The notes under the pieces: model-generated
Databases searched by the model: none
The model's input: only the letters and a program-made list of their open reading frames with translations
What the model was told of the DNA's origin: nothing
Origin: Chrysophaeum taylorii
Lineage: Eukaryota; Sar; Pelagophyceae; Pelagomonadales; Pelagomonadaceae
Length of the DNA: 64,000 nt
Assembly: GCA_029834535.1 (NCBI GenBank)
Contig: JAQMWT010000406.1
Span: forward strand, 93,437 to 157,436
Reading direction: 5' to 3'
Program-made: the position numbers and the translations under genes
Shown here: piece by piece, positions 19,607 through 36,250 of the stretch
How the letters are laid out: every line of letters starts with the position of its first letter
Position numbering within the stretch: the stretch's first letter is position 1

Positions 19607-19649
19607 CTCCACCACCACCAAACGGTTTTTTATTTCTAAGTCGTGAAAG

Positions 19650-19762
19650 AAAAGGGGCGGAAGGGTAAGGAAGAAGGAGAGAGGGAAAGCCGTATTACGG
19701 ACAGAAAACCCTCGTGTAGAGATAGGTGTGAAATGTTCCAGTGTCGCATAGCTCTCTGGACC
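19650..19762. repeat. Direct repeat, left copy (possible LTR remnant of the large copia-like element)
   Basis: About 110 bp recur in the same orientation at about 32898-33020, sharing blocks such as GAGGGAAAGCCGTATTACGG, AGAAAACCCTCGT and TAGAGATAGGTGTGAAATG. The two copies bracket the coding part of the copia-like element. This left copy lies about 45 bp upstream of the RTEL1-like start codon. No clean TG...CA termini or target duplication could be fixed. Confidence 0.6.
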
Positions 19763-19869
19763 CCCTCGACGTGTGGAAACAGTTTGTGCATTTCAGACGT
19801 GTTCTTGAGGCGGAACTTGTGCAATATACATGACAATGGAACAAACAACAACAGAACAGGGCAAATTAA

Positions 19870-20660
19870 TTATGATGTCGAGCGTGTTGTAATGTTACGC
19901 AAAGAAGCTGTATCAGCATCCACGTCAGATGTATGGTCCAGTTCATCTTCACTATTATCACCCAGTTCCTTTGACTCTGGAGAAGGTGAGTTATGTACAT
20001 CTGATGGTGGGTCGTTGGTAGTGTTAGTATTGTGCGTAGTCATTGCATCACTCAAGGTAACCAAGGGTGATATGACAGATGAAAGGAAAGACATAGCAGT
20101 GTCAGGAGTAAAAGCGTGTAGATCCAATGCAGGAATAACACGATCATTTGCATCAGACATAGCTGCATGGAGATGATGAGCTGCTGCGTCGATTTGAACT
20201 TGCTGAGCCTCATTATACGTATTTGGAGGGAGCTGTCCAATAGATGAGATCAGTGATCGAGAAATAATATGGACAAATACAGCAGAAGACGGGATTATGA
20301 TGTCCTGATGCATCTGAAGACTTGACAGGTTGTTGTCTAGTAGAGACACATGCTTGATGTTCTCAATCACTTGGGTGTTTAAATTTTCGTAAATTTCTTG
20401 CATCTGTGTGAGAGATGTTGATGCAAGCGATAGTTGTTCCTCTTGTGCCTTCAATTCTGTTCGGTATTAGTGAGACGCAAGGATAAGGACCGAACCTCTT
20501 CTTTTAATTGATGTAAAGATTCAGCCATATTATCGTTAGTTTTATCCGGCGTAGGTTCAGCGGGTGGATTGTCGATCGGCGCTGGTGAAACATCTTCAGA
20601 AGAAGTATCATCTGAAAAGACATCATTTATGTCCGAAGGGTAGCCAACCTGGACTAGCAC
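19870..20660 (-). pseudogene. Coiled-coil-like 3' frames of the copia-like element
   Basis: Two overlapping frames (20451-20660 and 19870-20454) look like one protein split by a frameshift. The first is acidic with SLHQLKEEVRSLSLRL, a likely coiled coil. The second continues with EEQLSLASTSLTQMQEIYENL heptad-like spacing and ends in an acidic Ser/Asp tail. They lie downstream of RNase H, a position used for additional ORFs in some LTR elements. No family is recognised. Confidence 0.45.
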
Positions 20661-20663
20661 ATT

Positions 20664-21251
20664 TTAAACGGCAGCTTGCTGTATGGGGGTTAGTTGACGA
20701 AAATAATTAAGCATTGGCGGTAACGTTTCCGAGGAGATTGTGTTAAGTTGGTGAGAAACATCATCAACGAAGCGTTCAACAAGCACATTAAGCAGCTCGT
20801 CCGGGTTGGTTACTATGCATACTTTATCTTCAACAGAATGTAACAGAGACCAAGCTGCTACAAGAATCTCAAGATTTACACTCGAGATAAAGGGCAACCG
20901 AAGTAAGATCATGCTGCTTTCATCAGGGTTAACAATGATTTTGGAGACATCAACTTTAAGGGATGTTGCAGTTTGCATGATTGCCTCTTTAAGCTGCTTA
21001 TTAATAGCAATAGACTTTCCAAGGTGGAGGATTATAGCCCTGATGTGGGCCGCTGGATCGTTAAAACAAGAAAGTTGGAAGCAAAAGGTGAGGGTAGGAA
21101 TGCCGGTCCTGGTGTGTGCGAGTGCCCGGGGCTGTATATACCCCTGTGCTTCCCCATCACAGTGAAACGTGAACATCTGGGGCGAGTCAAGCATGTATGC
21201 GAGACGGTGGGGACCCAGCAGACGACGACGCCATCTGCTTAAGATGAACAT
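20664..21251 (-). CDS. Unrecognised 3' frame of the copia-like element (195 codons)
   Basis: The frame encodes a mostly helical protein with segments such as LTFCFQLSCFNDPAAHIRAI and LLRLPFISSVNLEILVAAW. Its start region contains a segment (YIQPRALAH.RTGIPTLTF) that is repeated in the next upstream frame because about 70 bp are duplicated in DNA. No known domain is seen. It belongs to the element by composition and strand. Confidence 0.4.
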   Translation of the reverse strand: MFILSRWRRRLLGPHRLAYMLDSPQMFTFHCDGEAQGYIQPRALAHTRTGIPTLTFCFQLSCFNDPAAHIRAIILHLGKSIAINKQLKEAIMQTATSLKVDVSKIIVNPDESSMILLRLPFISSVNLEILVAAWSLLHSVEDKVCIVTNPDELLNVLVERFVDDVSHQLNTISSETLPPMLNYFRQLTPIQQAAV

Positions 21252-21524
21252 CTGCGTCGGAGATGAACATCCGGTCCTGGTAAGTGAAAGCGCCCAGATG
21301 AGGGGGGTCTAGTGTGTGTGCTAGACGATGGGGCTCCAGCAGTTGGCGACGGCAGCTGCTTCGAAGGCACTCACACACTCCTTGCGGCGCAGCGGTGGGG
21401 CGGATTCGAACGCGCGAACCACCTCGAGCGCTTTAAGGGCCCATAACCAAAACTTGGCAAAAGGTGAGGGTAGGAATGCCGGTCCTGATGTGTGCTAGTG
21501 CCCGGGGCTGTATATACCCCTGTG
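21083..21524. repeat. Insertion-like segment bounded by a 70-bp direct repeat
   Basis: The stretch at about 21083-21152 (AAAAGGTGAGGGTAGGAATG ... GGGGCTGTATATACCCCTGTG) recurs nearly unchanged at 21456-21524. The segment between them holds two further imperfect copies of a roughly 65-bp unit (GGGCGAGTCAAGC... and GGGGTCTAGTGTG..., each with a CCAGCAG...CATCTGCTT-like core). It splits what looks like one element-encoded frame into two, so it is a later insertion or local duplication. Confidence 0.55.
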
Positions 21525-22377
21525 GGAAGGGCTGCTGACTATTGCGGATTAAAGCTATCCCATGATGTGACCGATCGCACAGCGCACAAATCAACAAGAA
21601 GAAAGGGCGCGGCACATCGAAACAGTGAGATGCATGTTGCGCAGACGCGAGATGATCCTCAATAATTTGGCGAATCGCGTCAGTTTTAAGTTCGTCTTCA
21701 TTGCAAATGGTGAGCACGACTGGTGTGCCTGGCGCTTTCACTTTGTTATAACACTTTGTACACATCACGTGAACTTTGACAACCCCTTTAATGGGTGGGA
21801 AGCGATGAAGACGAATTCCCTCATTAGGAGATATAGCGGGGGCGTTTCGGATACGCTTAGTCTTGACACACAACAAAGAGCTGAGATATTGGACATTGTC
21901 TACAAACTCTGTCTGTTGTGCTTCCGTAAGTAGCTGCTGCAAAGACTCAAACCAGCACTGGGGGTCCTTGTGTTGCGGAATAAGGAAATTGGGTGGTGAT
22001 GAGCCAAGGGCAGTAACGTTCCCGGACATCATCGCTAATACGTCAAATTTACAATGTTTGAGCAGGAAATACTCAGACTTTGTTGCTTGCAATTTAGACT
22101 GTTGTTGGGCAGCTGCTTTGGGAGTCGATTGATGTCCTTGTGCCACCGACAAATAGGTTTGATGTTTCCGTTTAGGGGAACTAGTCGGTGCAACGCTTGG
22201 AGTTAGAGCATTAAAAGGTGGAGACAGTGACAGTATACCACCACTACGACCCCGGTTCATGGTAGAGTGGCGTCGGCTCGCAGCATCTTTGTTTTTAGTG
22301 GGATTCATCATGAGAGGAATCTCCACATCACATTTTATGTAGCATTTCACATTTTTGCAAGCCAGTATCATGTGCAT
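21433..22377 (-). CDS. Cys-rich 3' ORF of the copia-like element (314 codons)
   Basis: The frame follows RNase H on the same strand. The N-terminal third is basic, Ser/Thr/Pro- and Gln-rich. The C-terminal half has paired cysteines and histidines (VMCTKCYNK, ASHCFDVPRPFFLLICALCD, RSHHG), suggesting a metal-binding module. No retroviral or cellular domain is recognised. Such downstream frames occur in some large copia elements; the role here is unknown. Confidence 0.5.
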   Translation of the reverse strand: MHMILACKNVKCYIKCDVEIPLMMNPTKNKDAASRRHSTMNRGRSGGILSLSPPFNALTPSVAPTSSPKRKHQTYLSVAQGHQSTPKAAAQQQSKLQATKSEYFLLKHCKFDVLAMMSGNVTALGSSPPNFLIPQHKDPQCWFESLQQLLTEAQQTEFVDNVQYLSSLLCVKTKRIRNAPAISPNEGIRLHRFPPIKGVVKVHVMCTKCYNKVKAPGTPVVLTICNEDELKTDAIRQIIEDHLASAQHASHCFDVPRPFFLLICALCDRSHHGIALIRNSQQPFPQGYIQPRALAHIRTGIPTLTFCQVLVMGP

Positions 22378-22427
22378 GGCAGGGTTAGTTTAAAGTCATT
22401 TCGGACATAATGGAGGGTAATGATTAA

Positions 22428-23279
22428 CTAACTATCTTGTTGAACTATGGGTTGTTGTAAGCCGAGTAACGTGCGAAATCTGCTGAAGAGTGGAGCTCCA
22501 AAGGGTTTGGTAAATCCATCGGCGATATTATGGGAGCCGGAAACATGATGTAGACGGATGCGTTTTAACTGTACGTAGTCGCGTACACGGAACCAACGTG
22601 TGCTGATAGCTTTAGCCTTAGTCGCACTGTCGGGATTATTAGATAGATGAATAGCAGAAGCAGAATCTCCAAGTATAGGGCTGTTACGTATGAACGACAT
22701 GTCCGACGGGAGGGGATTGTCGTGAGCATCATAGTCTAATAGCAAGTCTTTCCCTGGAGGTTGGTGGAAATAGAAGTGAGGATTTATAGCGAATGCCATT
22801 TCCGTTAGCAATTTGCGTAACCAGACCACATCATCGGCGCACATATTAAGGGCTATGAGCTCACTTTCGTGCGTAGAAGTAGCTGTAATAGGTTGCAACT
22901 TGGACTTCCAAGTGATGAGAGAACCAAACAGAAGGATAGCGTAACCGGTCGTAGATTTGCGGTCTTGTTCATAAGAGGGTGCATTATCGGCATCAACGAA
23001 CGCGACTAGTGGATCAAAATTACCTGAATTAACTAGTTCTTTAGTGTAGTCCAACATGGTAGCCATGTCAGTACGATTACCGATAAGAAGTCGAAGATGG
23101 TCCATTAGAGCGGAAGAACCAGAGTAGTACCAGAGGCGAAGATTGCGATTTTCGGGCTTGCGCAAGTAGCAGAGCGTTCCTGTTAGTACTTGAACATGTA
23201 GAAATGCTGGATTATGCATTCCTCGAGAGCAACGACCTAAGGCTTTGGGATAAATCAGGACGACAGGCCAATTGAACAA
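22428..23279 (-). pseudogene. Ty1/copia RNase H domain
   Basis: RNase H features in order are FVDADNAPSYEQDRKSTTGY with the first Asp, the STHESELIAL block, DSASAIHLSNNP, TRWFRVRDYV and HVSGSHNIADGFTKPFG, all typical of copia RNase H. It removes the RNA template during cDNA synthesis. The frame overlaps the upstream reverse-transcriptase frame by 68 bp in another phase, so a frameshift separates them. Confidence 0.85.
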
Positions 23280-24484
23280 ACGTGAGCTTGCCGAGTAGTG
23301 TAGAGAAAGTATGAAGGATGAACTTGTCCATATCAGAAGATGACTCTCCAGTTTTATACGTGGTTGATGGTGACATCGGTGTGGAAGTGGGGCGCAACTG
23401 CATTAAAACGGGGTACTCTTCGAACAATGCATCAAGTTTAGCCTGACAGTCCAGTGATATAGAACCATCAGTTGTACGCGTTATGCGCATGCCTAAGAGA
23501 GTATGGACTTCCTCGAAGGTGTCGACTGAGTATTCCTTTTTCAGAGCGTGCTGGAACTCACGACGTAGAGTTTCTGAAGTACAAGTAATGACGACGTCGT
23601 CTACTGAGAGCGTGCAAATTAGAAATGTAGCGTCAGCTTGGACTTTAGCGTAAATGCATGTGTCTGTTCGAAATCGTGTATAGCCTAATGAATCAAAGAA
23701 GCCGTTTATGGTTTGATTCCAAAGGGCAGGGCTCTGACGCAATCCATAGAGAGATTTAAGTAGCTTTGGAAGACGGCGGCCTTGGTATTTAGTATCTTCG
23801 GGATCGAGAAGGTAAATGCCTTGAGGCAGTTTGACGTAGACATGAGAATCGATGGGAGCTTGAACAAAAGCGTTAGGGACGTCGACATGGTAGACGGGAA
23901 GTCGCAGGTGAGCTGCTAGCGCCAAAACACAACGGATGCCGGTAAGCTGTGCCATAGGACTGAATGTGTTGAAGAAATCGGTGCCCAGAGAGGCTAAGAA
24001 TCCTCGTAGGACCAGGCGTGCTTTATGTTTAATGTACTGACCAGCAGCGTTGGTTTTTATCCGTAGGACGAGACGGGTGTCAATAGGTTTTGAGTTGACC
24101 ATTGGCAGCGCTAGTTTAAAGCAGCCAAACTTAACAATGTCAAAAATCTCTTTAGAGATGGCAGCAACATAAGCTTTGCGATCAGCGTCTGAGAGACCTT
24201 TGAGGCAGGTCAACTCATATTCATCAATTTTGATATCTTTGGCTTGAATCTTGTATTCGTCCGAACCAACCGTGCTAGGGTCATGAGTCGTCGTCAGATG
24301 AGTAATCGAATAAGAAGCGATATTATCGTGCAGATGAGCATGATCGGGATCTTCGACGAGTTGAACAACTAGTAGAGGAGCATCACCAAGGTGGGCTTCA
24401 ATGTAATGCGATTGTACGGTGATATAGTCTTCGATGGCGGAGAGATGAGGCTCAGAAGCGCCGTAAGAAGCGTCATCCACAATC
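23212..24484 (-). pseudogene. Ty1/copia reverse transcriptase
   Basis: Motifs include KARLVLRGF, GTDFFNTFSPMAQLTGIR, HVDVPNAFVQAPIDSHVYVK, KSLYGLRQSPALWNQ, the catalytic SVDDVVI (Ser in place of the usual Tyr/Phe before VDD), LLGMRITR and LGKLTFVQLACRPDL. The domain copies element RNA into DNA. The open frame continues upstream to 24615, but the part beyond 24484 is translated PIF1-repeat DNA that was inserted here, so the native N-terminal link to integrase is lost. Confidence 0.88.
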
Positions 24485-25508
24485 CTTACTACTAATCGAC
24501 AGATGTTTGTCTGTTTGTCTGTCCCCCGATTTAGGGTAAGGATCAGGTAGGCCCGCGAGCCAGGCAGGCATTGATCCTCCAAGCCGTCTACGGCGACCTC
24601 GCAGACTATTTCCACGACCCGCGGCGGCTCTTTCAGCGCGCCATTCTCACGCCCCGTCGAAACGATGTTGTCGATGCTGACAACGCGCGCATGACCGCGG
24701 CCTTTTTTCCCCGGAGACGAGGCGTCGGAGTTCTTTTTCGGGAGACTAGGTTGGGTCGGAAGACGACGCCTCGCTCTTTACAGTCGAGTTTTCAACTCCC
24801 TGACAACCAACGGCATGCTGACTTTGAGCGCGAGCTTAAAGTCTTCGCAACCTCGACCAGTCGCACGGCCACTGCAACGGTACCAGATACATGATCGATC
24901 GTGTCGTTGTCACCGAGGCTCCTCCAACCTGTATCCCTTAAGGCCCGCCTACGCCAACGATCAACAAGAGCCAGGGCCAGACGCCCCGCGAGGTCGGCGT
25001 CCTCTTGCCCAAGCCCGTCTTCTGTCACGTCCAGCGCTACGTGGCTCACTGTCGATCGGCAGCCCCGAGAATATGCTCTTCTGAGTCGACGACTCCACCC
25101 TACCCCACACGTGCTGCGCAATACCGACAAGCCCCCTCCCGGCGTCTACACGCGCACTGTAGGTGAACTTACTGGGACAAGATGAACTTACTGGGGTTAG
25201 AGATTGGGACTATGTGAATATAGTGACCACGTGAGCTTACTGAGACCAGGTGAACTTACTGGGTTTTCTAGAGTAAACTCAAGGATTGGCGGCGCGTGCG
25301 GATCAAAGCAGCTTGGATTGGCGGGGGTGAGAGCGACGAGCTCAAAGGAGTGGGTGTGAGCACGAGCGGGTTTACGCCGAACTTACTGGGGTTAGAGATT
25401 TGGACTAGGTGAACTTACTGACCAGGTGAACTTACTGGGACCAGGTGACCAGGTGAACTTACTGGGGTTAGAGATTCGGACTAGGTGAACTTACTGGCCT
25501 GCACTTGT
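24485..25508 (+). mobile_element. PIF1/Helitron-helicase-derived repeat, left copy
   Basis: The plus strand encodes pieces of a PIF1-type helicase tail. One is RAILTPRRNDVVDADNARM. In other frames come NGTRYMIDRVVVTEAPP, LRPAYA, then the TINKSQGQTPREVGVLL and KPVFCHVQ blocks, which match the conserved end of Helitron-type helicases. Frames shift repeatedly, so it is a fossil. The 3' part (about 25158-25497) is a tandem array of GTGAACTTACTGGG units. An inverted copy is at 33504-34512. The insertion falls between the integrase and reverse-transcriptase parts of the copia pol. Confidence 0.72.
25158..25497. repeat. Tandem GTGAACTTACTGG array (left)
   Basis: At least seven copies of GTGAACTTACTGG, often followed by GGTTAGAGATT or preceded by ACCAG, end the left PIF1-derived repeat. 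The inverted counterpart is at about 33525-33830. Confidence 0.75.
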
Positions 25509-27428
25509 TATGATCCAAAATGGAGTGGGACGTGAACAAAGCATAAACATATTGAGCGGGAGGAACTTGAATGGCGTGAGCATGTTCAGAGATTAAATGA
25601 ACGAGAGCTTGAGGAAAGTGAAAGTCTGCAAGGTTGATGTTGTCGCAGAAGTGAACATGAGGAGTATCAGGTGATGGGTGGCTATGGCTCCTATGACACA
25701 TAACTGAAGAGGACTGTGAAATCGCTTGGTGCACATGGTGTAAATCCCCCCTCTGGAGGTATAGCCGTCCAGTGGATGCCATGAGTGATATGAAGGGAGT
25801 GGAGGGTGGGGTCGCAGAAGGTTATGTACTGCTTGGAGAGGTCATACTTGAAGTCGGCAAGCGTACCACCGGCTTGTTTATAAGCGGCAACAGTAGGCGA
25901 AGCAATACGAGTAAGAACATCCTTGAGATTGGTTTTGCGACGAGGCTGAGGATGATGAGGACCACGGGTGAGACGGAGGACATCCTGGGAACAGAGAGAC
26001 CGATAAGATGGTAAAAGTGGCAGAGTGTCGGGAGACACTTCGGATGTAGGTGTGGTGGTGGAAGTAGCGGGTGCAGGAGGAGCTGGAGCACATGCGGGAG
26101 CGGGAGAGGGAGCATGGAGATGAGAAGAAGGAGTCCCCCTCTCATGGTCAGTGTTGGTAGGCATAGCATTCCCCCTCTGCGTCGCATCATTGGGGGTGCT
26201 GTGAACAGAGAAGGGAATGTCGGGTGAAGGTGCGGGAGGTGGATGCTGTTCATAATCAGGAGGAGATTTAGAAATAAGATGGGGAAAAGTCAGTTTAGAG
26301 GAAACACGGACTTGGCCGTTTTCAGGATTAAGGACAACATCGGCTAAATGATTAACGTGGGGTGTTATTAAAGGATTTATAACGTTAGCACCGCATAGGT
26401 AGATGTAGGGACGACATCGGGGCTCATATTTATGAAATTCGTTAGGTTCCAAATGCAAATAACAAACAGAGCCAAAAGGTTTGAGGTAGTCTTGTTGGGG
26501 AACATTACATTGGTCTAACAAAACTTGTTGGGGACTTAGGACTTTATTATAAATACGTTCGAGGGAAACGTTAGGGAGGAGATTATATGATTGGATAGCA
26601 TGTATAACAGCCCACGGGTAGTGTGGTGCCGGATCTGTTAGGGGGTGACCTTTATAGGATACATTAAGCATATGCCTGAGTCGTGTAGACGCGGCAGTGT
26701 CTATGTGACCAACATGGCTTCGACTTCATGATTAAATACATGTAAGTAAGGGGGGAACGCGGACATATTAATACCGTGTTCCACACGGAAGGGGGTTGTA
26801 ACATGCTGGGATAAATAGGGTTTAAAGGAATCACAATAAATTTGTTTTAGTTGTACATGAACATAAGTAGAGCAAAAATTGCGGACAAACTCAAGGGCGT
26901 TACAAAATTCGCTGGAGTTAGTGCTACGACAAAAGTACACTAACAGAAATTTAGAAATGAGACACTTGAAGACAATAATATGTCGAAAGGATCCCCATTC
27001 CGAGAGAACAGTGACGTAACCACCGTCACATGCCCAAGCTTCACCAGGTTGAAAATTTTTTTCGAATGATGGTTGCTTGATAAGATGGTGTGGATGAGGA
27101 AAGCTTTTTTATGAATTGTACAATCCACACAGAACTTACGGTAGGGTACGTCAGATGGGTGGTGTCCAGGACTGGCAGATGGGTGGTGTCCAGGACTGGC
27201 AATAACCTGAACAGCTTTTATAGCTTGAAAATCACTGGAATGGTGAATGTTGTGAAAGTTAGTAGCTCGTTGTTGCGCATCTCGAAATACAAGGGTGCCC
27301 CTGGCATGGACTTTCTTATCGAAGGGCGCATGCTTCTCGTGGAGCTGTCTTGGCGTTATAAGTGGTATTTGTTTTTCTTTAGTAGGAGAAAAATATATCT
27401 GCGGACAGGATGTTAGAGAGGAAAGCAT
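25468..27428 (-). pseudogene. Ty1/copia integrase (HHCC zinc region, catalytic core, C-terminal part), frame-broken
   Basis: An HHCC-like region (NFHNIHH ... KFCVDCTIHKK) at about 27260-27110 is followed, after a frameshift near 27060, by ACDGGYVTVLSEWGSF with the first acidic residue, YCDSFKPYL with the second and HVFNHEVEAMLV as candidate third. The segment 25691-26671 carries PFGSVCYLHL and GANVIN, as in the copia integrase C-terminus, then a Pro/Thr-rich linker. A further frameshift near 25760 leads to a frame that ends inside the inserted PIF1 repeat. A 22-bp direct duplication at 27157-27200 repeats the residues SPGHHPS. Confidence 0.72.
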
Positions 27429-29394
27429 GAGCTACTGAATCAGTATGAAAAGAGGTAAGTTCGTAGTTAGAAGTGATAGTATCACAACATAAGAGTTTTT
27501 TATTGGAAATGTAGAACATAGTAATGGAACTCTGGTGTAATGTTGAAGATGTATCTGTTGGGAATATATTTGTGAAGGTTGGCCTATAGTTTTTAGTTAG
27601 AGGAGCGTGATCAGGGTTAAACGATGGTAATAGCGTTAATGTACGCAAGTCGTAAACAAGCTGACACAAGTGTTTATAAATTGTATGATATGTTCCAGCT
27701 GGAATAGCATTTGCGATGATATCACAGCATAGGTCGGGGGACAAAGACGAAAGAAAATTGATTTGGTACGCTGTGAAGTTATTGGCGCGTGCCAATTCGC
27801 GAGTTGAGTAGTGTCGGATGCGATCGAGTCGTGGATCGTACACGGGCATATTAGCAAATCCACGAATGGTAGGAGTGGGAGTATATATAGAGTAAACTTT
27901 GGCCCCATCTTTCTGTCGCTTGATGTTATAAAGCCCAAATATCTGCTTTGGACAAGTGCATGTCACTTAAAGCAAATATTTTGTCGATAAATTCGAGGCG
28001 ATTTTCCTGAGGGTAGAAGACAAAAGAATCATGAAATACATGAGAGGTGTAGGAAACCAGTGCTTGTACTAGACGACGTGTGTCTTGATTTTCATTATTA
28101 TGATGGTATGCTTGGCGAAGCCAAAGAAAACCGGTGACTGGTTCGAGAGAAGCAGTCTTGTCGATTCCGGCATCGTGTGTTAAAAGGGTGTAGGTTTCGC
28201 CAAAAGCATTTATGTGTACCTGGTATTTAGAAGAGGAGTTAGAAACTGTTATGTCTCCGCCTGTATGTCTTCCACCGGTGATGTAAATGATGGAGGAAGT
28301 AGAGGGTTTATTTAAAAATAACCTATGAGATGGTTGGTTAGATTCGATAGTTGTAATACGAAAGGACACAGGTAATGTGATGGATTTAGGGAATAATCGT
28401 CCCATGATATTATAGAGGAGCACAAAAGCTTTGAGTTCAATAGGGGATCTCATGCAAACTAGTGGTATTCTTGAATTAGCCAAGAATCCCAGGCGAAAAT
28501 TAGAAATGCCTTCCATTTCATCTTGACTGGGATGTTCGACTGTTTCATTAGAGTGCAGACGAAGGAACAGCATAGTTATGGTTTCGAGCTCAGTCACATT
28601 TAAGCGCACGGATCCGGTACGACTAAATATGTTATAGGTTTGGGTGTGGACACAAATGGTAAGTCAGGAAAGACTTGTGTCCAAGGTTCGTCGACTATTA
28701 ACTTGCGACTGATGGAATTAGCATGGTCTGCGATATCCAGAAAGGAGGTGACTCGTTTATTAGGCCATGAAAGCAAATCGAGACGGCCGGTGTTATATTT
28801 GCGTGCAACGAGGATCCATCTTTCTCTGGCTTGATAATCTCCACATAGATAGCATGGAAATCGGTCACATATGTCCGCCGTGTAGTGCATCGTTGAGAAG
28901 ATGAGATTGGCAACTCGTATATGGTCTTCATACGATGCGGAGTGTGGTGGTGTCATTTCCATGAAAAGAACGAGCGGCTTTAAAAGCTCAAGTACACTTA
29001 GAGCACTTGGAAACAAGGAATCATCCATATCGCGCTCGAAGGTGGAAATGGATCTCCCATTGATTATGTTGCGATTTGTGCATGGTGATGTCAATTCCAC
29101 TATGTCAGTGTAATATCGTGCACGTTCAACGTCCGATGCTCGATGGAGATATGTCAAAACCTTAGGTAAGGATGGGAAAACTTCGATGGAGTTACCAAAA
29201 CGTCTTCGTAGCATGTGCGTGATATTGTCGTCGCTCTCAACAAGAACTTTAACGTCGATGTTGATTTGCAAGTCATTAGAAGCGCAAGCCAAGAATGCAG
29301 GAGTGGACATCCCAGAGCAAAGTAAAGTTACTGTAGGTATTCGTGGGCTAGGAGATGAAGTTACTGTATGGAACAAACGTGTTGTAACCTTGCG
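27379..29394 (-). CDS. Cytosine-5 DNA methyltransferase domain encoded inside the copia-like element, frame-broken
   Basis: The segment lies in the same frame as the Gag-like ORF, separated by one TGA (29395-29397). C5-MTase motifs appear in family order: I TVTLLCSGMSTPAF (about 29330-29290), IV ELTSPCTNRN with the catalytic Pro-Cys (about 29095-29065), VI LFMEMTP with the conserved Glu (about 28965), VIII GDYQARERWILVARK (QxRxR, about 28842-28795), a long target-recognition-like region, IX HYSTRELARANNF (about 27815) and X DIIANAIPAGTYHTI (about 27725). The reading frame shifts near 28605 and 27950. In the family such enzymes transfer methyl from S-adenosylmethionine to cytosine C5. Its place between protease-like and integrase segments makes it part of the element's polyprotein. 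It is closer in motif style to bacterial/DNMT2-like QxRxR enzymes than to DNMT3. The product may also fail to be made in this decayed copy. Confidence 0.82.
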
Positions 29395-31659
29395 TCATAC
29401 TGGAGGTGAGAAATGCTTACGTATATAAGGCAGCTGTGAATGCATTGACTCCAAAATGGTTTTAAGCCATGGGACATAAATTACTCGTTCCATGAGGGTG
29501 GAGTATAGTTTGAGCATTTCGCGTTGTTCATTAAAAGCACATAGTCTGAACTGTAGTGAGCGAAGTTCCATTTTACGCGCTTTTGCTTGTTGTAGCGAGT
29601 AAATTGGTAGAGTTGGCAACAGGTTACTGAGTCTAAACAAAGTAATCTTGACATTATCATCAATTTTACTCTGGATAGATGATTGTCCTTTAAATTCGAC
29701 TCCATAAAGGTGTATACCAAGTTTATCTTCTCCCCATTGAGTCATACTGATGATGTGCAGATCGGGATCGTTATGGTCGTTTTGCTTGGGTAGAAAAAGC
29801 GCAACGTCTAGCTTTACATATCCCACATTTGGATGCTTTGGGAGAGCGGGAATGACGGTCCTTATAATCATAGCATGTGTGATTCTCTGCGTATCCGTAG
29901 CAGTCTGGATAGCAGGTGATAAGGACTCGGGTAGCTTTGCGATGTGGATAGGATCAGCATAACGTTTAAAGTTAATTGCATGTTGAGAAGCACATGTGTC
30001 AGCATATCCTGGCGTAGTCATTAGCGGCAAATTGTACTCGTTGTACAATTTAAGCATTGTCGCATAAAAGGCATGTGTTGAGCTTTGACCAAACACGTAC
30101 TGTGTCATGAAACTTTGCGTTTGTTCGGAAGGCACAACGACGAGTGTAAAACCAGTATTTAGTTTTGGTAGCAACACAGGGGGATCTGTACCATCTTCGT
30201 TGGTTAAATTACTGGGGAGCTCAGAGTGCAAAGAAGTTTCCCGAGCTTGACGACGAACAATAGCATTCTGAGCTTTAGCATTTATGTGCTGCAATAGCGG
30301 CTGAGGGATGTTATCGATTTCATCGTCTTTAATTGACAGGAAAGTGTGGAACATTTTCTCTGTATCAGCAGTCCCCCTCTGCTCCGCATCACTGGGGGGC
30401 GCTTCAGGAGCAGATGTTTCAGTTTGATACTTTTCTTCTGAAACCAGAGATTCCTCATCGGCTTCCAAGAGGTTCGATATGGTATTGGACGTAATATCAA
30501 CTCGAGATAAGTAGAGATGAACTTGGGTGGCTTCATCAGGATCCAAGGACTGTGTCGAAGCTTGAGAAGCGGTTGTCCAGAGGGTACTCAATAAGCTTTT
30601 CATTTCCTCCTGTACCATTTTAGAGTCGGTGGAAGGATTGGGATTCGCTTCCTGCAATTTACCAAACAGGTGGCGAAGACGATCAACTTGATAAGTAGCC
30701 CGGTCCATAAGAGACATATTCGAGCGTGCATTACGGTTAGAAGAAGATGAGTAGACAGGACGATCGAAGCTGGTACCTTTGACGTTATAATTTGAAGGTG
30801 GACGATAGTACGACGTGTCACGGGGTGAGATTGTCGATGCTTTATCTTTAGCATTACGAAGCTTACGAGCATTGAAGCCAGACTGTCCAGCTACAGTAGC
30901 TAACAACGAGTAAGCGTTGTTTAGAGAATCGTGGGATTGATGAATAGTGTCCATCAATAATACCTTAGGTGGCTTGGTAGCGGTAGTACCAGGGATGTAA
31001 GGGATCCAAGAAGCGGGTTTATCCAAGCGTCGGTTAGAAGAAAACTTTGTCTCATTATATATCTTTAACAAGAATTCCAATAGTGGACGAACGTCGTTGG
31101 GATCAACTAGCTTTAACAATTCGGGATCGTGACTCGAGTTGTTACTAGAGCGTGTCTCGTAGAGTTTACACCATTCCAATGAAGATTGAGAATAGCGCTC
31201 GTGATCCGATGGATTAGCATATAGACGGTAGATCTCCTCGTGAGCTTTAAGAGTGATTATGGAGTTATTAAATTGGATTGATGCTTCATCATTATTTAAT
31301 TGCTTTGCCTGAGATTGAAAGGAAAGGAGTTGTTCGACAAATACATGGGCATACCAATTAACATTTAGAGACATTCGATTAAACTGAGATTTAAGCTCAG
31401 TTGCATCTGTACAAGACACTGTCTCATAGTAATGATAGGCTAAAAGCATTACAGCAAGCATTACAGCACGTAATTTATTAGGATGTGCAGGGGCTGCATA
31501 AATTTTCTTTAGTTGAGGCCACATAGCGAGAGCGGGCTTTTCCTGGGACTCGAGGTTAAAGAATATGTACAAAAAGCCAGCATAAGTTTCGCAGTGTTTG
31601 ATCCAATCGGCATTAGAGAGACCTGTAAAGGATATGTTAGTTAAAGATGAATCATACAC
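29395..31659 (-). CDS. Gag-like and protease-like polyprotein of the copia-like element (754 codons)
   Basis: The first 300 residues resemble a Ty1/copia Gag: helical, with a WCKLYETRSSN segment and a basic Ser/Asn-rich linker, but no CCHC knuckle. At about residue 545 lies PGYADTCASQHAI, which matches the copia protease active-site region (usually DSGAS.H) with Cys in place of Gly, followed by the VKLDVALFLP.....LHIISM pattern of the protease fold. The frame ends with TGA and continues openly into the methyltransferase in the same phase. It would assemble particles and cleave the polyprotein. Confidence 0.65.
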   Translation of the reverse strand: MYDSSLTNISFTGLSNADWIKHCETYAGFLYIFFNLESQEKPALAMWPQLKKIYAAPAHPNKLRAVMLAVMLLAYHYYETVSCTDATELKSQFNRMSLNVNWYAHVFVEQLLSFQSQAKQLNNDEASIQFNNSIITLKAHEEIYRLYANPSDHERYSQSSLEWCKLYETRSSNNSSHDPELLKLVDPNDVRPLLEFLLKIYNETKFSSNRRLDKPASWIPYIPGTTATKPPKVLLMDTIHQSHDSLNNAYSLLATVAGQSGFNARKLRNAKDKASTISPRDTSYYRPPSNYNVKGTSFDRPVYSSSSNRNARSNMSLMDRATYQVDRLRHLFGKLQEANPNPSTDSKMVQEEMKSLLSTLWTTASQASTQSLDPDEATQVHLYLSRVDITSNTISNLLEADEESLVSEEKYQTETSAPEAPPSDAEQRGTADTEKMFHTFLSIKDDEIDNIPQPLLQHINAKAQNAIVRRQARETSLHSELPSNLTNEDGTDPPVLLPKLNTGFTLVVVPSEQTQSFMTQYVFGQSSTHAFYATMLKLYNEYNLPLMTTPGYADTCASQHAINFKRYADPIHIAKLPESLSPAIQTATDTQRITHAMIIRTVIPALPKHPNVGYVKLDVALFLPKQNDHNDPDLHIISMTQWGEDKLGIHLYGVEFKGQSSIQSKIDDNVKITLFRLSNLLPTLPIYSLQQAKARKMELRSLQFRLCAFNEQREMLKLYSTLMERVIYVPWLKTILESMHSQLPYIRKHFSPPV

Positions 31660-31776
31660 AATTGATTTAGGAAATCGGGTATCTAATAAAGGACATTTTT
31701 AACATCCTCATTTAATTCAGGACGGACAAGGTTGTACGACTCTTGGTAGTAAAGTCGTTCAAGGCTATTACGGGCA

Positions 31777-32133
31777 TCAACCGTTAGTTGAGAGGGAGTT
31801 GACGTGCCAAGTCTTTAAATATTCGGGCAGGGCATCTTCATCAGGTAAGTTTAAATCGTTAACTTGTTCAGCTTTCCATTGAGCGAAGATGATATCAGCT
31901 TCTTGTTCAAGGACTTGATTATATTCCGGAGCATTCCGGGTGTAAGCTTCATATGAATCATAGCAGAATAACGCGTCCACATATGGACTTGTCATATGCC
32001 TGTGAAGCGTTTCAATTTGTAAGCTCACCTTAGTTGAATTATCTTGGAAACGTAATCCTGCGTTAATCTTATCAACGAGGATCTGTTCTTGTTTGTAGAT
32101 ATCAGTGGTAGATATTGTTTTTTGTTTTGACAT
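31777..32133 (-). pseudogene. N-terminal Gag-like fragment of the copia-like element
   Basis: A 118-codon frame starts MSKQKTISTTDIYKQEQ at an ATG (32133) and contains AYTRNAPEYNQVLEQEADI. It precedes the 754-codon frame on the same strand and is probably the original Gag N-terminus, separated by a frameshift and about 120 bp. Confidence 0.5.
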
Positions 32134-32897
32134 GATTGTGACCTATTAAGAGATAGGCTGGAGAATTGATAGACAGATTCAACACACAAGAATGAAGGGC
32201 TTCTCAAGTGCGGGTTCTATGTACAGTACGCGATTTTTAAAACGTAGGCTTATTGACAAGACCAAACAAATCAACATGTTATTTAAAACAGGGTGACTTG
32301 AGACTGAAGAATGAATCAGTTCTCGAGCAGCCAGTCTTTTGTTGGGGAGTGGAAGGAAAATCCCATACAAGTTTCCGCGGCTTGCATGGGAAAAATTTTA
32401 ATTTTATTGGTTATGTGAGTGCATATGACCAGTGACCGACCCAACTCGGTCACAAACAGATTTAACTGGATGGCACATACCGCCACACAACAAATATGTA
32501 CAGTAGACCACCGCCAAACACATTGTCGCATTGTACTCGTGATCAGGCGCAAATTGATCATTCGATTTAGACGTACAACACAGTTGGGCTGATACACCTA
32601 CGCATCTGGGCCCATAACCTGGAGAGATTTGACCCTCTCCGGGTACATGGTAGAGACTGCGTGCAGTCTTAGGCGTGTACAGACCATTCCGCTTGTCACA
32701 TGCTACTACACAAGGTAGGGATTTAGGCCCTAACTCCTTAAGGACATTAGGCCCCATAGAAGCGTTTACACTGACAACGGGGAACGAAGTCTCTGTTAAT
32801 TAAACAGAAAACCCCGTACCCGACGGTACGCACCTGGAGGCCTACTCCATGTTGGAAAAGAGCTTCAGATTGGGTTCTTCATAATCTGAGATAAACG
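32134..32897. other. Leader-like untranslated region of the copia-like element
   Basis: About 760 bp between the first Gag-like ATG and the right-hand direct repeat contain no convincing coding frame. A tRNA-complementary primer-binding site could not be assigned by eye. Confidence 0.4.
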
Positions 32898-33025
32898 GGC
32901 GGAAGGAGGGTAAGGAAAGAAGGAGAAAGAGGGAAAGCCGTATTACGGAGAGAAAACCCTCGTCTAGAGATAGGTGTGAAATGTTTCAGTGTCGCACACA
33001 TAATAGTGTAGCTCTCTGGAACCGA
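32898..33025. repeat. Direct repeat, right copy (possible 5' LTR remnant)
   Basis: It matches the left copy at 19650-19762 in the same orientation with scattered substitutions and small indels, including an extra ACATAATAGTG block before TAGCTCTCTGGA. If these are LTR remnants, this is the 5' one, because the element reads on the minus strand. Confidence 0.6.
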
Positions 33026-33503: not shown

Positions 33504-34512
33504 ACAAGTGCAGGCCAGTAAGTTCACCTACTCCCAATCTCTAACCCCAGTAAGTTCAGGTCTGGTCCCAGTAAGTTTCATATAAGTTCACCTGGTCAGT
33601 AAGTTCACCTAGCTCACACCAACTCCTTTGAGCTCGTCGCTCTCGCCTCCGCCAATCTAAGCTGCTTTGATCCGCACGCGCCGCCAACCTTTAAGTTTAC
33701 TCTAAAAACCCTTTACTCTAAAAGCCCCAGTATGTTCACCTGGTCCCAGTTTCACCTGGTCACTCAGCTCACCTAGTCCCAATCTCAAACCCCAGTAAGT
33801 TCACCTGGTCTCAGTAAGTTCACCTACAGTGCGCGCGTAGACGCCGGGAGGGGGCTTATCGGTATTGCGCAGCACGTTTGGGGTAGGGTGGAGTCGTCGA
33901 CTCGGAAGAGGATATCCTCGGGTTGCCGATCGACAGAGAGCCACGTAGAGCTGGACGTGGCAGAAGACGGGCTTCGCCAAGAGGACGCCGACCTCGCGGG
34001 GCGTCTGGCCCTGGCTCTTGTTGATCGTTTGGCGTAGGCGGGCCTTAAGCGATACAGGTTGGAGGAGCCTCGGTGACAACGACACGATCGATCATGTATC
34101 TGGTACCGTTGCAGTGGCCGTGCGACGGGTCGAGGTTTCGAAGACCTTAAGCTCGCGCTCAAAGTCAGCATCCCGTTGGTTGTCAGGGAGTTGAAAACTC
34201 TACTGTAAAGAGCGAGGCGTCGTCTTCCGACCCAGCCTAGTCAGCCGAAAAGAACTCCGACGCCTCGTCTCCGGGAAAAAAAGGCCGCGGTCATGCGCGC
34301 GTTGTCAGCATCGACAACATCGTTTCGACGGAGCGTGAGAATGGCGCGCTGAAAGAGCCGCCGCGGGTCGTGGAAATAGTCTGCGAGGTCGCCGTAGACG
34401 GCTTGGAGGATCACTATCTGGCTCTCGCGCCTACCTGATCCTTACTCTCGCGCCTACCTGGTCCTTACCCTAAATCGAGGGACAAACAGACAAACAGACA
34501 GACAGACAAACA
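33504..34512 (-). mobile_element. PIF1/Helitron-helicase-derived repeat, right copy (inverted)
   Basis: This copy is the reverse complement of 24485-25508 with modest divergence. It begins with the CAAGTGCAGGCCAGTAAG end, carries the tandem AAGTTCACC array, then helicase-tail coding on the minus strand (TINKSQGQTPREVGVLLAKP, FCHVQLYVALC). Its other end is cut at 34512 by the short-LTR copia element. The missing terminal piece (TCTGTCGATTAGTAGT) resumes at 39081-39096. Confidence 0.72.
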
Positions 34513-34690: not shown

Positions 34691-36250
34691 GGAGAAGCTT
34701 TGAGGAAGACGTCACGTTTGAGGAAGACGTCACAGAGGCATTGTGGCAAGAAAAAGAGACAACAGAGATCAGGGCGAAGATCACGAAGTGAGGTAACGAG
34801 CACGAAGCCGGAGGAAGGAAGGAGTTTCCGTACTGCGGGTGAAAATGTCGCTAAGATTGTTAAGGCGGGGTATGTGCTTGAGATCGATGATGTGGTTGCG
34901 ATGGTACTCGGCGGTACTGTAAAAGCGAATGTCAATATGGCGGGTGCGCCGTGTGAGACATTGGAGACGAACTTGGGTGACGGTGGTGCTATTATCAGCA
35001 TACATTGGGACCGTGTGACGAGGGAGATCAAAGTCATCGAAAAGTTTGAGAAGCCAAGAGAGCTCAGCAGTAGCAGCGTAAAGAGCAAGCAATTCAGCTT
35101 CGAAAGAAGAACGATCAAGTAAGTATTGCGAGCGGGAGCAGTAGGCTATATAGAGCCAGCAACAAAAGAAGAGCGAGCAAGTAAGTACTGCGATCGGGGG
35201 CAGTAGGCGATCATAGAGCCAGCAGAGAAAACAAAGAAACAGTTGTGGAGTGGCGGTCATCAGGGTCGTCGGCCCAGCGGGAGTCGGAATAACCACAGAG
35301 ACGAAGGGTAGAATCGCGACCAAGAACAAGGGCAAGATCCTGAGTACCGTTGAGATAACGCAGAGTGTGGGATAAAGCGTGCCAAGCGTGCCAGTGGGGT
35401 TTACCAGGATTGTGGGAAAAACGCGCACACTGATTGACGGACCAAGTGATATCAGGGCGAGTCATGATGGAGATGAAGAGGACACAGCCAACAATACGGC
35501 GAAAAGGGACACGCGTAATGCGAAGACCAACGTAAGAGGTGAGATCGAGTTCATTGACGTCAGTGAAAGCGCGGAAACGGAGGAAAAAGGCTTGGTAATG
35601 GCCAATGCAATGACGAGGGTGCGCCACAAGAAGATCATCAACGACCAGAACGAGACGTAGAACGACGGTAGAATTGAGCACGAGCTTGTAATGGCAAGTG
35701 TCACCAGATCCGCGGACGAAGCCACAGTCATTGACGAGAAAGCGTGCCAAATAAAGCCACCAATTACGACAAGCTTGTTTACAACCATACCAAGAGCGAC
35801 GGAGCTTGTAAACGATTTTGAAACCATCGGTGGGTTGGCGAGGAGCATAGCCTTCGGGTGGCCAGACATAGATGTCTTCGTCAATGGGAGCTTGAATAAA
35901 AGCGGAGCTGACATCCAACTTGTGCAAATCCCAGTCATGAACAGCGACAAAGATCAGAAAGAAACGGATCGTGACGATGTTGGCAACCGGTGAGTAGGTG
36001 TCATGATAATCAATGCCGTGAACCTGGGTGTAACCGCGGACGACAAGGCGAGCCTTGTACGATTTGAAGCGGCCAGAGTCATACTTCTTGCGGAGGATCC
36101 ACTTGAGGGTACAAATGTTGCCAGAAAACGTCGAAGGAAGGCGCATAACATCCCAGCAACCAAGCTGACCAAGAGAGCTGTATTCTTTAGCGATGGCTTG
36201 CAACCAGCCAGGACGCTTAGGATTGGTCGGATAGTCGTTTCGTCAAGGTC
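34684..36250 (-). pseudogene. Copia reverse transcriptase and RNase H of the second element
   Basis: Frame 35211-36203 has FKSYKARLVVRGYTQVHGI, SPVANIVTIRFFL, KLDVSSAFIQAPIDEDIYVW, WYGCKQACRNWW, the catalytic VVDDLLV and GCVLFISIMTRPDITWSV, typical copia reverse transcriptase. RNase H starts as GYSDSRWADDPDDR in the same frame and continues after a frameshift near 35250 with RSSFEAELLALYAATAE, YADNSTTVTQV and RTRHIDIRFYS. Integrase and Gag are not recognisable upstream, so the element is defective. Confidence 0.85.

Follow-up and report, generated by a model that had tools for sequence, protein, structure and literature searches.

Results

A cytosine methyltransferase inside a copia-type element

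We analyzed a 64,000-nucleotide stretch of the Chrysophaeum taylorii genome (contig JAQMWT010000406.1, positions 93,437 to 157,436; hereafter the window) and the broken copy of a copia-type retrotransposon that lies on its minus strand at 19639..33020. Element features below are on this strand. Between an open reading frame (ORF) for Gag and a protease-like region (29395..31698; 767 amino acids, aa) and the integrase, this copy encodes a C5 cytosine methyltransferase (MTase) in two halves, at 28600..29394 and 27379..27966. The N-terminal half contains motifs I (29328-29293; TLLCSGMSTPAF), IV (29091-29074; TSPCTN), VI (28962-28945; MEMTPP), and VIII (28833-28819; QARER), and the C-terminal half contains motifs IX (27822-27775) and X (27717-27694). 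The motifs stand in order and include the catalytic Cys, the Glu, and the motif VIII Arg. These coordinates and frames agree with a first-pass annotation of this DNA, which had described six C5-MTase motifs between Gag/protease and integrase on the minus strand. It had also placed the MTase in the Gag frame after one TGA, and the MTase ORF does begin directly after an in-frame TGA (29395..29397) that separates it from Gag-protease. The stretch between motifs VIII and IX (27926..28663), corresponding to the target-recognition or insert region, matches residues 252-484 of another genomic copy, L030, and lies here in a different frame. The MTase of the window copy is therefore split over three frames (29394-28600, 28663-27926, and 27966-27379).

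Downstream of the MTase is a segment (26940..27431, with CVDCT at 27117-27131) that we take to be the integrase zinc finger, judging by its motif and position. It is followed by the integrase catalytic core (26701..27108; PF00665 rve, E 0.0005, below the curated cut-off), an SH3-like C-terminal part (25691..26725; PF25597, E 7.9e-6, just below the cut-off), and a reverse transcriptase (RT) ORF (23212..24777; PF07727 RVT_2, 1.4e-42). The rve and SH3-like matches, both below their curated cut-offs, thus lie upstream of an RVT_2 RT, which is the order of Ty1/Copia elements.

Relatives identify the methyltransferase

The first-pass annotation had proposed comparing the window frames with the DNA_methylase hidden Markov model, and this comparison came out negative: no window piece matched PF00145 in Pfam at E≤1. 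The MTase claim therefore needed other proof, and relatives of the element provided it. Among 120 copia-related proteins, the N-terminal piece (28600-29394) had phmmer matches to nine, from P0011 (5.6e-28) to P0017 (3.6e-7). The C-terminal piece (27379-27966) matched six of the 120, from P0011 (2.5e-12) through P0009 (1e-11) and P0010 (1.4e-8) to P0003 (3e-4). Every match of both pieces falls inside the clade of MTase-bearing copia elements described below. The middle piece (27926-28663) had no phmmer match among the 120 proteins, and among the sequences compared it matched solely copies in its own genome. In P0009 and P0010, the stretch matched by the window pieces passes the curated cut-off for PF00145. 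A profile built from the window piece and 11 relatives and searched against PDB chains ranked M.HhaI first (1.6e-5) and also matched M.HaeIII (5.6e-5); all 15 matches at E≤0.003 are labelled cytosine methylases, and two weaker ones are unrelated. Cys105, Glu146, and Arg192 are invariant across 12 aligned rows with 19-33% identity to the window. An AlphaFold model of window 28639-29394, made with eight relatives, has the Rossmann strand-helix order at modest confidence (predicted template-modelling score 0.66; mean predicted local distance difference score, pLDDT, 64.6). In fold searches with this model, the 50 rows shown in each were C5 methyltransferases, their complexes, or the C5-carboxymethyltransferase 8yf3. 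A second model, of the P0009 domain, was poor (pLDDT 39.7) and was not used. Together, the phmmer matches to P0009 and P0010 over the stretch that passes PF00145, the profile match to M.HhaI, and the fold searches link the window pieces to DNA_methylase, confirming that they encode the two halves of a C5 MTase.

Searches with single families of the element were weak. Family A, to which the window copy belongs, found no MTase among PDB sequences when used alone; family B from the same genome found only a weak HhaI match (0.074). Profile comparisons of A with B, A with host DNMT2, and B with host DNMT2 gave E values of 0.35, 0.12, and 0.12. We attribute this to too little diversity within each family, a problem that a search led by the RT resolved. 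In a set of 5.8 billion proteins, the MTase regions of A and B alone found nothing at E≤0.01 among the roughly 8,000 scored candidates, those with the most words in common with the query. Because P0003 and P0004, later found to be relatives of B, are in that set, these blanks do not show absence. The family B RT found 1140 proteins in the set, of which 120 were listed. The nearest relatives include long polyproteins on ena, jgi, and lgn contigs, which are presumably metagenomic. Seven of the 120 listed proteins carry PF00145 beside PF07727, all seven above the cut-off on rescanning.

In alignment, the MTase is present in 15 of the 18 polyproteins of the clade; the other three (P0005, P0012, and P0019) start downstream of its place. 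Eight of these 15 have no PF00145 label, either in precomputed annotation (P0002, P0011, P0013, P0014, P0018) or in our scan (P0015, P0016, P0017), indicating that Pfam misses about half. The scan at E≤1 found PF00145 neither in the last three nor in P0012, which starts downstream. P0011, P0014, P0016, P0009, and P0010 resemble the window element in running from a protease-like motif through MTase and integrase to RT, with 21-33% identity to the window piece. They differ in being a single ORF of 2767-3300 aa that extends far upstream of the protease, in lacking a stop before the MTase, and in having motifs VIII and IX closer together than in the window family. In P0024, an MTase of a different sort precedes the protease-like motif. 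A scan of IMG/VR with the MTase alignment gave 16 pattern matches, none of which was confirmed.

Three families in the genome carry the domain

We searched the genome assembly (70.8 Mb, 697 contigs) for further copies. The window MTase piece has at least 145 matches (145 of 942 candidates scored). A search with the 581-aa MTase of L030, a family A copy, scored 75 of 1512 candidates; among the 79 matches listed, 33 were stop-free from residue ≤17 to 581 by our count. Family B was found through PF00145, which has 57 matches in the genome. Two of these are host genes; among eight loci fetched, six others (L003-L008) are family-B-like. In L031, a family B copy, a Gag ORF of 578 aa is followed by a 1952-aa Pol that joins a protease-like motif to MTase, integrase, and RVT_2. 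PF00145 recognizes this MTase at 1.1e-7, which passes the curated cut-off, and the MTase region has at least 74 matches in the genome (60 of 827 candidates scored). In BLASTP, the Pol proteins of A and B align from before motif IX through the integrase (4e-18) and again in the RT. Family C came from a search with the A integrase, which has at least 149 matches (147 of 1283 candidates scored); 25 of these, at 59-60% identity and with nearly equal scores, perhaps represent a recent burst. The sole family C copy read, L061 (C9:385500-394500), has an MTase half 54% identical to A over 217 aa, followed by motifs IX-X, and has stops after Gag and within the MTase. At the position of the aspartic protease D-[ST]-G motif, the window has DTCAS (29986-30000, inside the Gag and protease-like ORF), family B has DGGAS, and family C has DSRAT; several relatives have DSGAT or DTGA.

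The first-pass annotation had looked to sister copies for an unbroken frame from Gag to RT. L031 bears this out from the protease-like motif to the RT, with Gag as a separate ORF, and L030 does so over 1464 aa, covering MTase, integrase, and the start of the RT, with its Gag/protease part damaged. Elements in which Gag joins integrase directly, which would mark the MTase as a later insertion, did not appear in a small test of family A integrase loci. Among the top 25 integrase matches, nine were judged by eye to have no listed MTase match nearby, and five of the nine were fetched. In four of these five, the MTase lies upstream of the integrase, although in one it begins only at residue 176. 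In L062 (C17:74400-77000), a family A integrase copy, all element similarity ends between MTase and integrase.

The methyltransferase is under purifying selection

The catalytic Cys and Glu are retained in all 17 aligned retroelement MTases, and the proline that precedes the Cys in motif IV is lost in P0009, P0015, P0018, and P0024. Among copies hand-picked as open, the median ratio of non-synonymous to synonymous substitution rates (dN/dS) of the MTase was 0.066 in family A (28 pairs, 8 copies) and 0.195 in family B (45 pairs, 10 copies). Between L030 and L029, both of family A, motifs IV-VIII differ by 44 synonymous and 3 non-synonymous changes, a dN/dS of 0.009. Over motifs I-VIII the value was 0.025, compared with 0.025 in the integrase core, 0.010 in the integrase C-terminal part, and 0.124 in the linker after the MTase. 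In five pairs from family B, the values for MTase motifs I-VIII and integrase were 0.107 and 0.161, 0.095 and 0.057, 0.230 and 0.171, 0.128 and 0.064, and 0.232 and 0.127. The MTase domain is thus under purifying selection.

The frame is probably reached by recoding in family A

All 21 distinct family A copies examined keep the TGA ahead of the MTase (22 loci, with L025 and L029 representing one copy and L009 being the window). L057, L058, and L059, which share 75-78% identity with the window, have it too; it is in frame in L057 and L059, whereas the frame downstream of it is shifted in L058. Family A has no conserved start codon before motif I, and its first Met, which is not conserved, falls within motif I. 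The conserved in-frame TGA, the shared frame on its two sides, and the lack of an alternative start suggest that the family A MTase is probably reached by readthrough of the UGA, which is followed by C. At the end of Gag in family B, 25 of 31 aligned rows, representing 24 of 30 distinct loci, read TGATG, and L041 had no match. In L031, the copy in which this was checked, Gag terminates at the TGA and Pol starts at the ATG. In the family C copy L061, an ATG directly follows the TGA. Accordingly, families B and C may use termination-reinitiation, as judged from these start and stop arrangements.

A probably old component of one copia clade

In a 41-row RT tree, the MTase-bearing copia elements form one clade (100/100), in which 17 of 20 rows show the MTase; the clade includes P0005, P0012, and P0019, with their downstream starts. 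With family C added, the clade has 21 members (100/100) and A and C are sisters. Relatives for these trees came from one search with the family B RT, together with 21 hand-picked other copia rows, or 8 in the tree with family C; P0006-P0008, which nearly duplicate P0005, were omitted. Small groups, starred in the trees, are common to the RT and MTase trees. By RT, P0021, P0023, and P0024 group as sisters with P0014/P0016 (98/95 in the 41-row tree), yet they carry an MTase of another sort. Placing their MTases in one clade with the others gave p 0.008 with host outgroups and 0.038 without them in the approximately unbiased (AU) test, and the two sorts are still related by hhalign (E 4e-9). The MTase was therefore probably gained before the lineages of the clade split and replaced at least once, in P0021/P0023/P0024. 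An MTase swap between family A and the P0011 group was also considered and is unsupported, as neither tree rejects the other (p-AU 0.30 and 0.09). Because the MTase is common to 15 of 18 polyproteins in one RT clade, its gain appears older than the families of the C. taylorii genome. The first-pass annotation had called the element an independent capture in another algal lineage, and as a local event that proposal is not supported; the MTase looks like an old, selected Pol enzyme and not a recent capture.

The host has DNMT genes of its own, which are the best two of the 57 PF00145 matches in the genome. L001 (1498-2580; PF00145 4e-19), which adjoins a chlorophyll-binding protein gene (PF00504), as would suit an algal host, is DNMT2-like, and L002 (1501-3537; PF00145 4e-17) is DNMT5-like; both classes are provisional assignments by motif. 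Searched against 124 sequences, a core profile of 14 retroelement MTases matched the DNMT5-like L002 at 7.8e-6 and left the host DNMT2 unmatched. An MTase tree with two long outgroups, containing no DNMT1 or DNMT3 sequences, did not settle class placement.

Remaining features of the window copy

The ends of the element are approximate: similarity to L060 stops at 33020, and a direct repeat of about 125 bp lies at each end. The 5' repeat (32893..33018, about 125 bp) and the 3' repeat (19639..19758, 94% identical to L060 over 113 bp) are putative short long terminal repeats (LTRs). No clear target-site duplication was seen at the element termini. The Gag and protease-like ORF has no Pfam match, and Gag is named by position. 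An ORF at 22428..23402 has no RNase H match in Pfam, and we take it to occupy the RNase H position from its place and the look of its sequence. Downstream of it, still inside the element, is a 318-aa ORF (21433-22389, minus strand) with no Pfam match at E≤10. The copy is damaged by frame changes in the MTase and integrase and by a 1,031-bp insertion (24477..25507, no strand assigned) that is missing from L029 and L030 and contains the first 300 bases of the RT ORF. The insertion pairs as an inverted repeat with 33612-34500, so that much of it is repeated, inverted, beside the element, and 70-nt direct repeats lie at 25184-25524. A second, different copia RT at 35211-36242 (minus strand) falls outside the MTase-copia clade in the RT tree.

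Discussion

We consider it fairly probable that these elements represent an ancient copia clade, spread over diverse hosts, in which a C5 MTase is a standard Pol enzyme, made at the Gag-Pol level by recoding and used on the element's own replication intermediate; it would have been replaced at least once (P0021/P0023/P0024) and lies on the other side of the protease in P0024. Our fuller reading, to which we give somewhat better than even chances, is of an old copia clade with a Pol of protease, C5 MTase, integrase, and RT/RNase H, whose MTase is packaged and methylates the element's own new DNA. The place between protease and integrase, in a frame reached in family A only by recoding, suggests a Pol-level enzyme that is released by the protease and packaged. 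In such a scheme, a little MTase would be produced within Gag-Pol, in family A through readthrough of the conserved UGA; the element protease would cut it out, and it would be packaged together with RT and integrase. It would then methylate cytosines of newly made element DNA, in the particle or at integration, and new copies would thereby enter the genome already marked. The substrate would then be element complementary DNA (cDNA).

Several observations weigh against this reading. Observed-to-expected CpG ratios are 0.95 in the window element, 0.93 in L029, 0.89 in L030, and 1.04 in L031, compared with 1.33 in the rest of the window, a weak footprint. C-T exchange at CpG exceeds that at CpH by a factor of just 1.18-1.32, and family B shows less of it at CpG than at CpT. 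No stable RNA structure was found after the TGA in three sequences folded. The choice of open copies biases dN/dS toward low values, and the family B MTase core, although constrained, is less so than the integrase in four of the five pairs. L030, with its long Pol frame, has a stop in the end of Gag and is missing about 430 bp of the Gag/protease part.

The weakness of the CpG footprint leaves room for RNA or host DNA as the substrate. DNMT2 methylates tRNA, and the MTase could modify RNA in the particle, either the genomic RNA of the element or the primer tRNA. We regard this as rather unlikely; the match of the core profile to the DNMT5-like host gene and not to DNMT2 speaks slightly against it, given the unsettled tree. 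Less likely still is an MTase that acts on the host genome, in the neighborhood of insertions or on other elements, and so lessens the cost of the element to the host. Purifying selection and high copy number would fit this idea. However, a place in Pol between protease and integrase would point to a role in the particle, and DNMT5-like and DNMT2 genes are already present in the host.

Two further alternatives question the enzyme itself. Having lost catalysis, the domain could serve as a nucleic-acid-binding module that aids integrase or the handling of cDNA, as loss of the motif IV proline in four relatives might suggest. The Cys and Glu present in every aligned MTase and invariant in the 12 divergent rows, and the family A dN/dS over motifs IV-VIII, argue against such a loss, and we hold the idea to be improbable. 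Finally, the motifs could be chance matches, or the segment an unrelated later insertion in one copy. The window pieces lacking a Pfam match, family A alone finding no PDB MTase, and the MTase-only searches of the large protein set, empty among the roughly 8,000 candidates scored, would favor this explanation. It is contradicted by the phmmer matches, the M.HhaI profile match, PF00145 in relatives, and the fold searches, and by the same segment recurring in the genome matches and in families B and C, and we give it next to no credence.

A copia element with an MTase lodged between protease and integrase, as claimed by the first-pass annotation, differs in class from the published LINE, DIRS, and Gypsy cases. 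The passages of PMC5890265 consulted here report MTases in those three kinds of element and describe Symbiodinium Copia elements as being without any DNMT domain. According to these passages, KnitGypsy-Dnmt3 of Klebsormidium nitens is likewise an LTR retrotransposon with a C5 MTase inside Pol and under purifying selection (Ka/Ks below 0.2); it differs in being a Gypsy element with a DNMT3-class MTase, whereas the Chrysophaeum element is Copia with no class assigned. SymbioDIRS-Dnmt3 and SymbioLINE-Dnmt of Symbiodinium, in the same passages, are retroelement-borne C5 MTases in high number as well, but their carriers belong to the DIRS and LINE classes; CG methylation in yeast is reported for the SymbioDIRS domains, the closest tested analogue (PMC5890265). 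The window element, with its RVT_2 RT of Copia type, lies outside the retroelement class of all three, and our RT trees used other copia rows for comparison. In the consulted parts of PMC12344493, a single phrase names 'LTR Copia' as a DNMT3 carrier, citing PMC5890265, whose passages say Gypsy, and section 5 describes no Copia element; the phrase may be a slip. The passages found in PMC9998398, a survey of DNMTs in SAR lineages, contain no such Copia-MTase element. Apart from that phrase, the literature consulted, PMC12477816 included, did not describe a C5 MTase in a Copia element; the search covered neither most subscription papers nor any preprints.

Hosts silence retrotransposons by cytosine methylation. 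An element that keeps a cytosine MTase of its own, under constraint comparable to that on its integrase, inverts the usual arms race. The published examples that we found concern captures by LINE, DIRS, and Gypsy elements in two algal lineages, whereas in this copia clade the MTase seems to be a component of long standing. Such an enzyme could let elements mark their own new copies, and the many stop-free copies in one small algal genome make direct tests of this idea possible.

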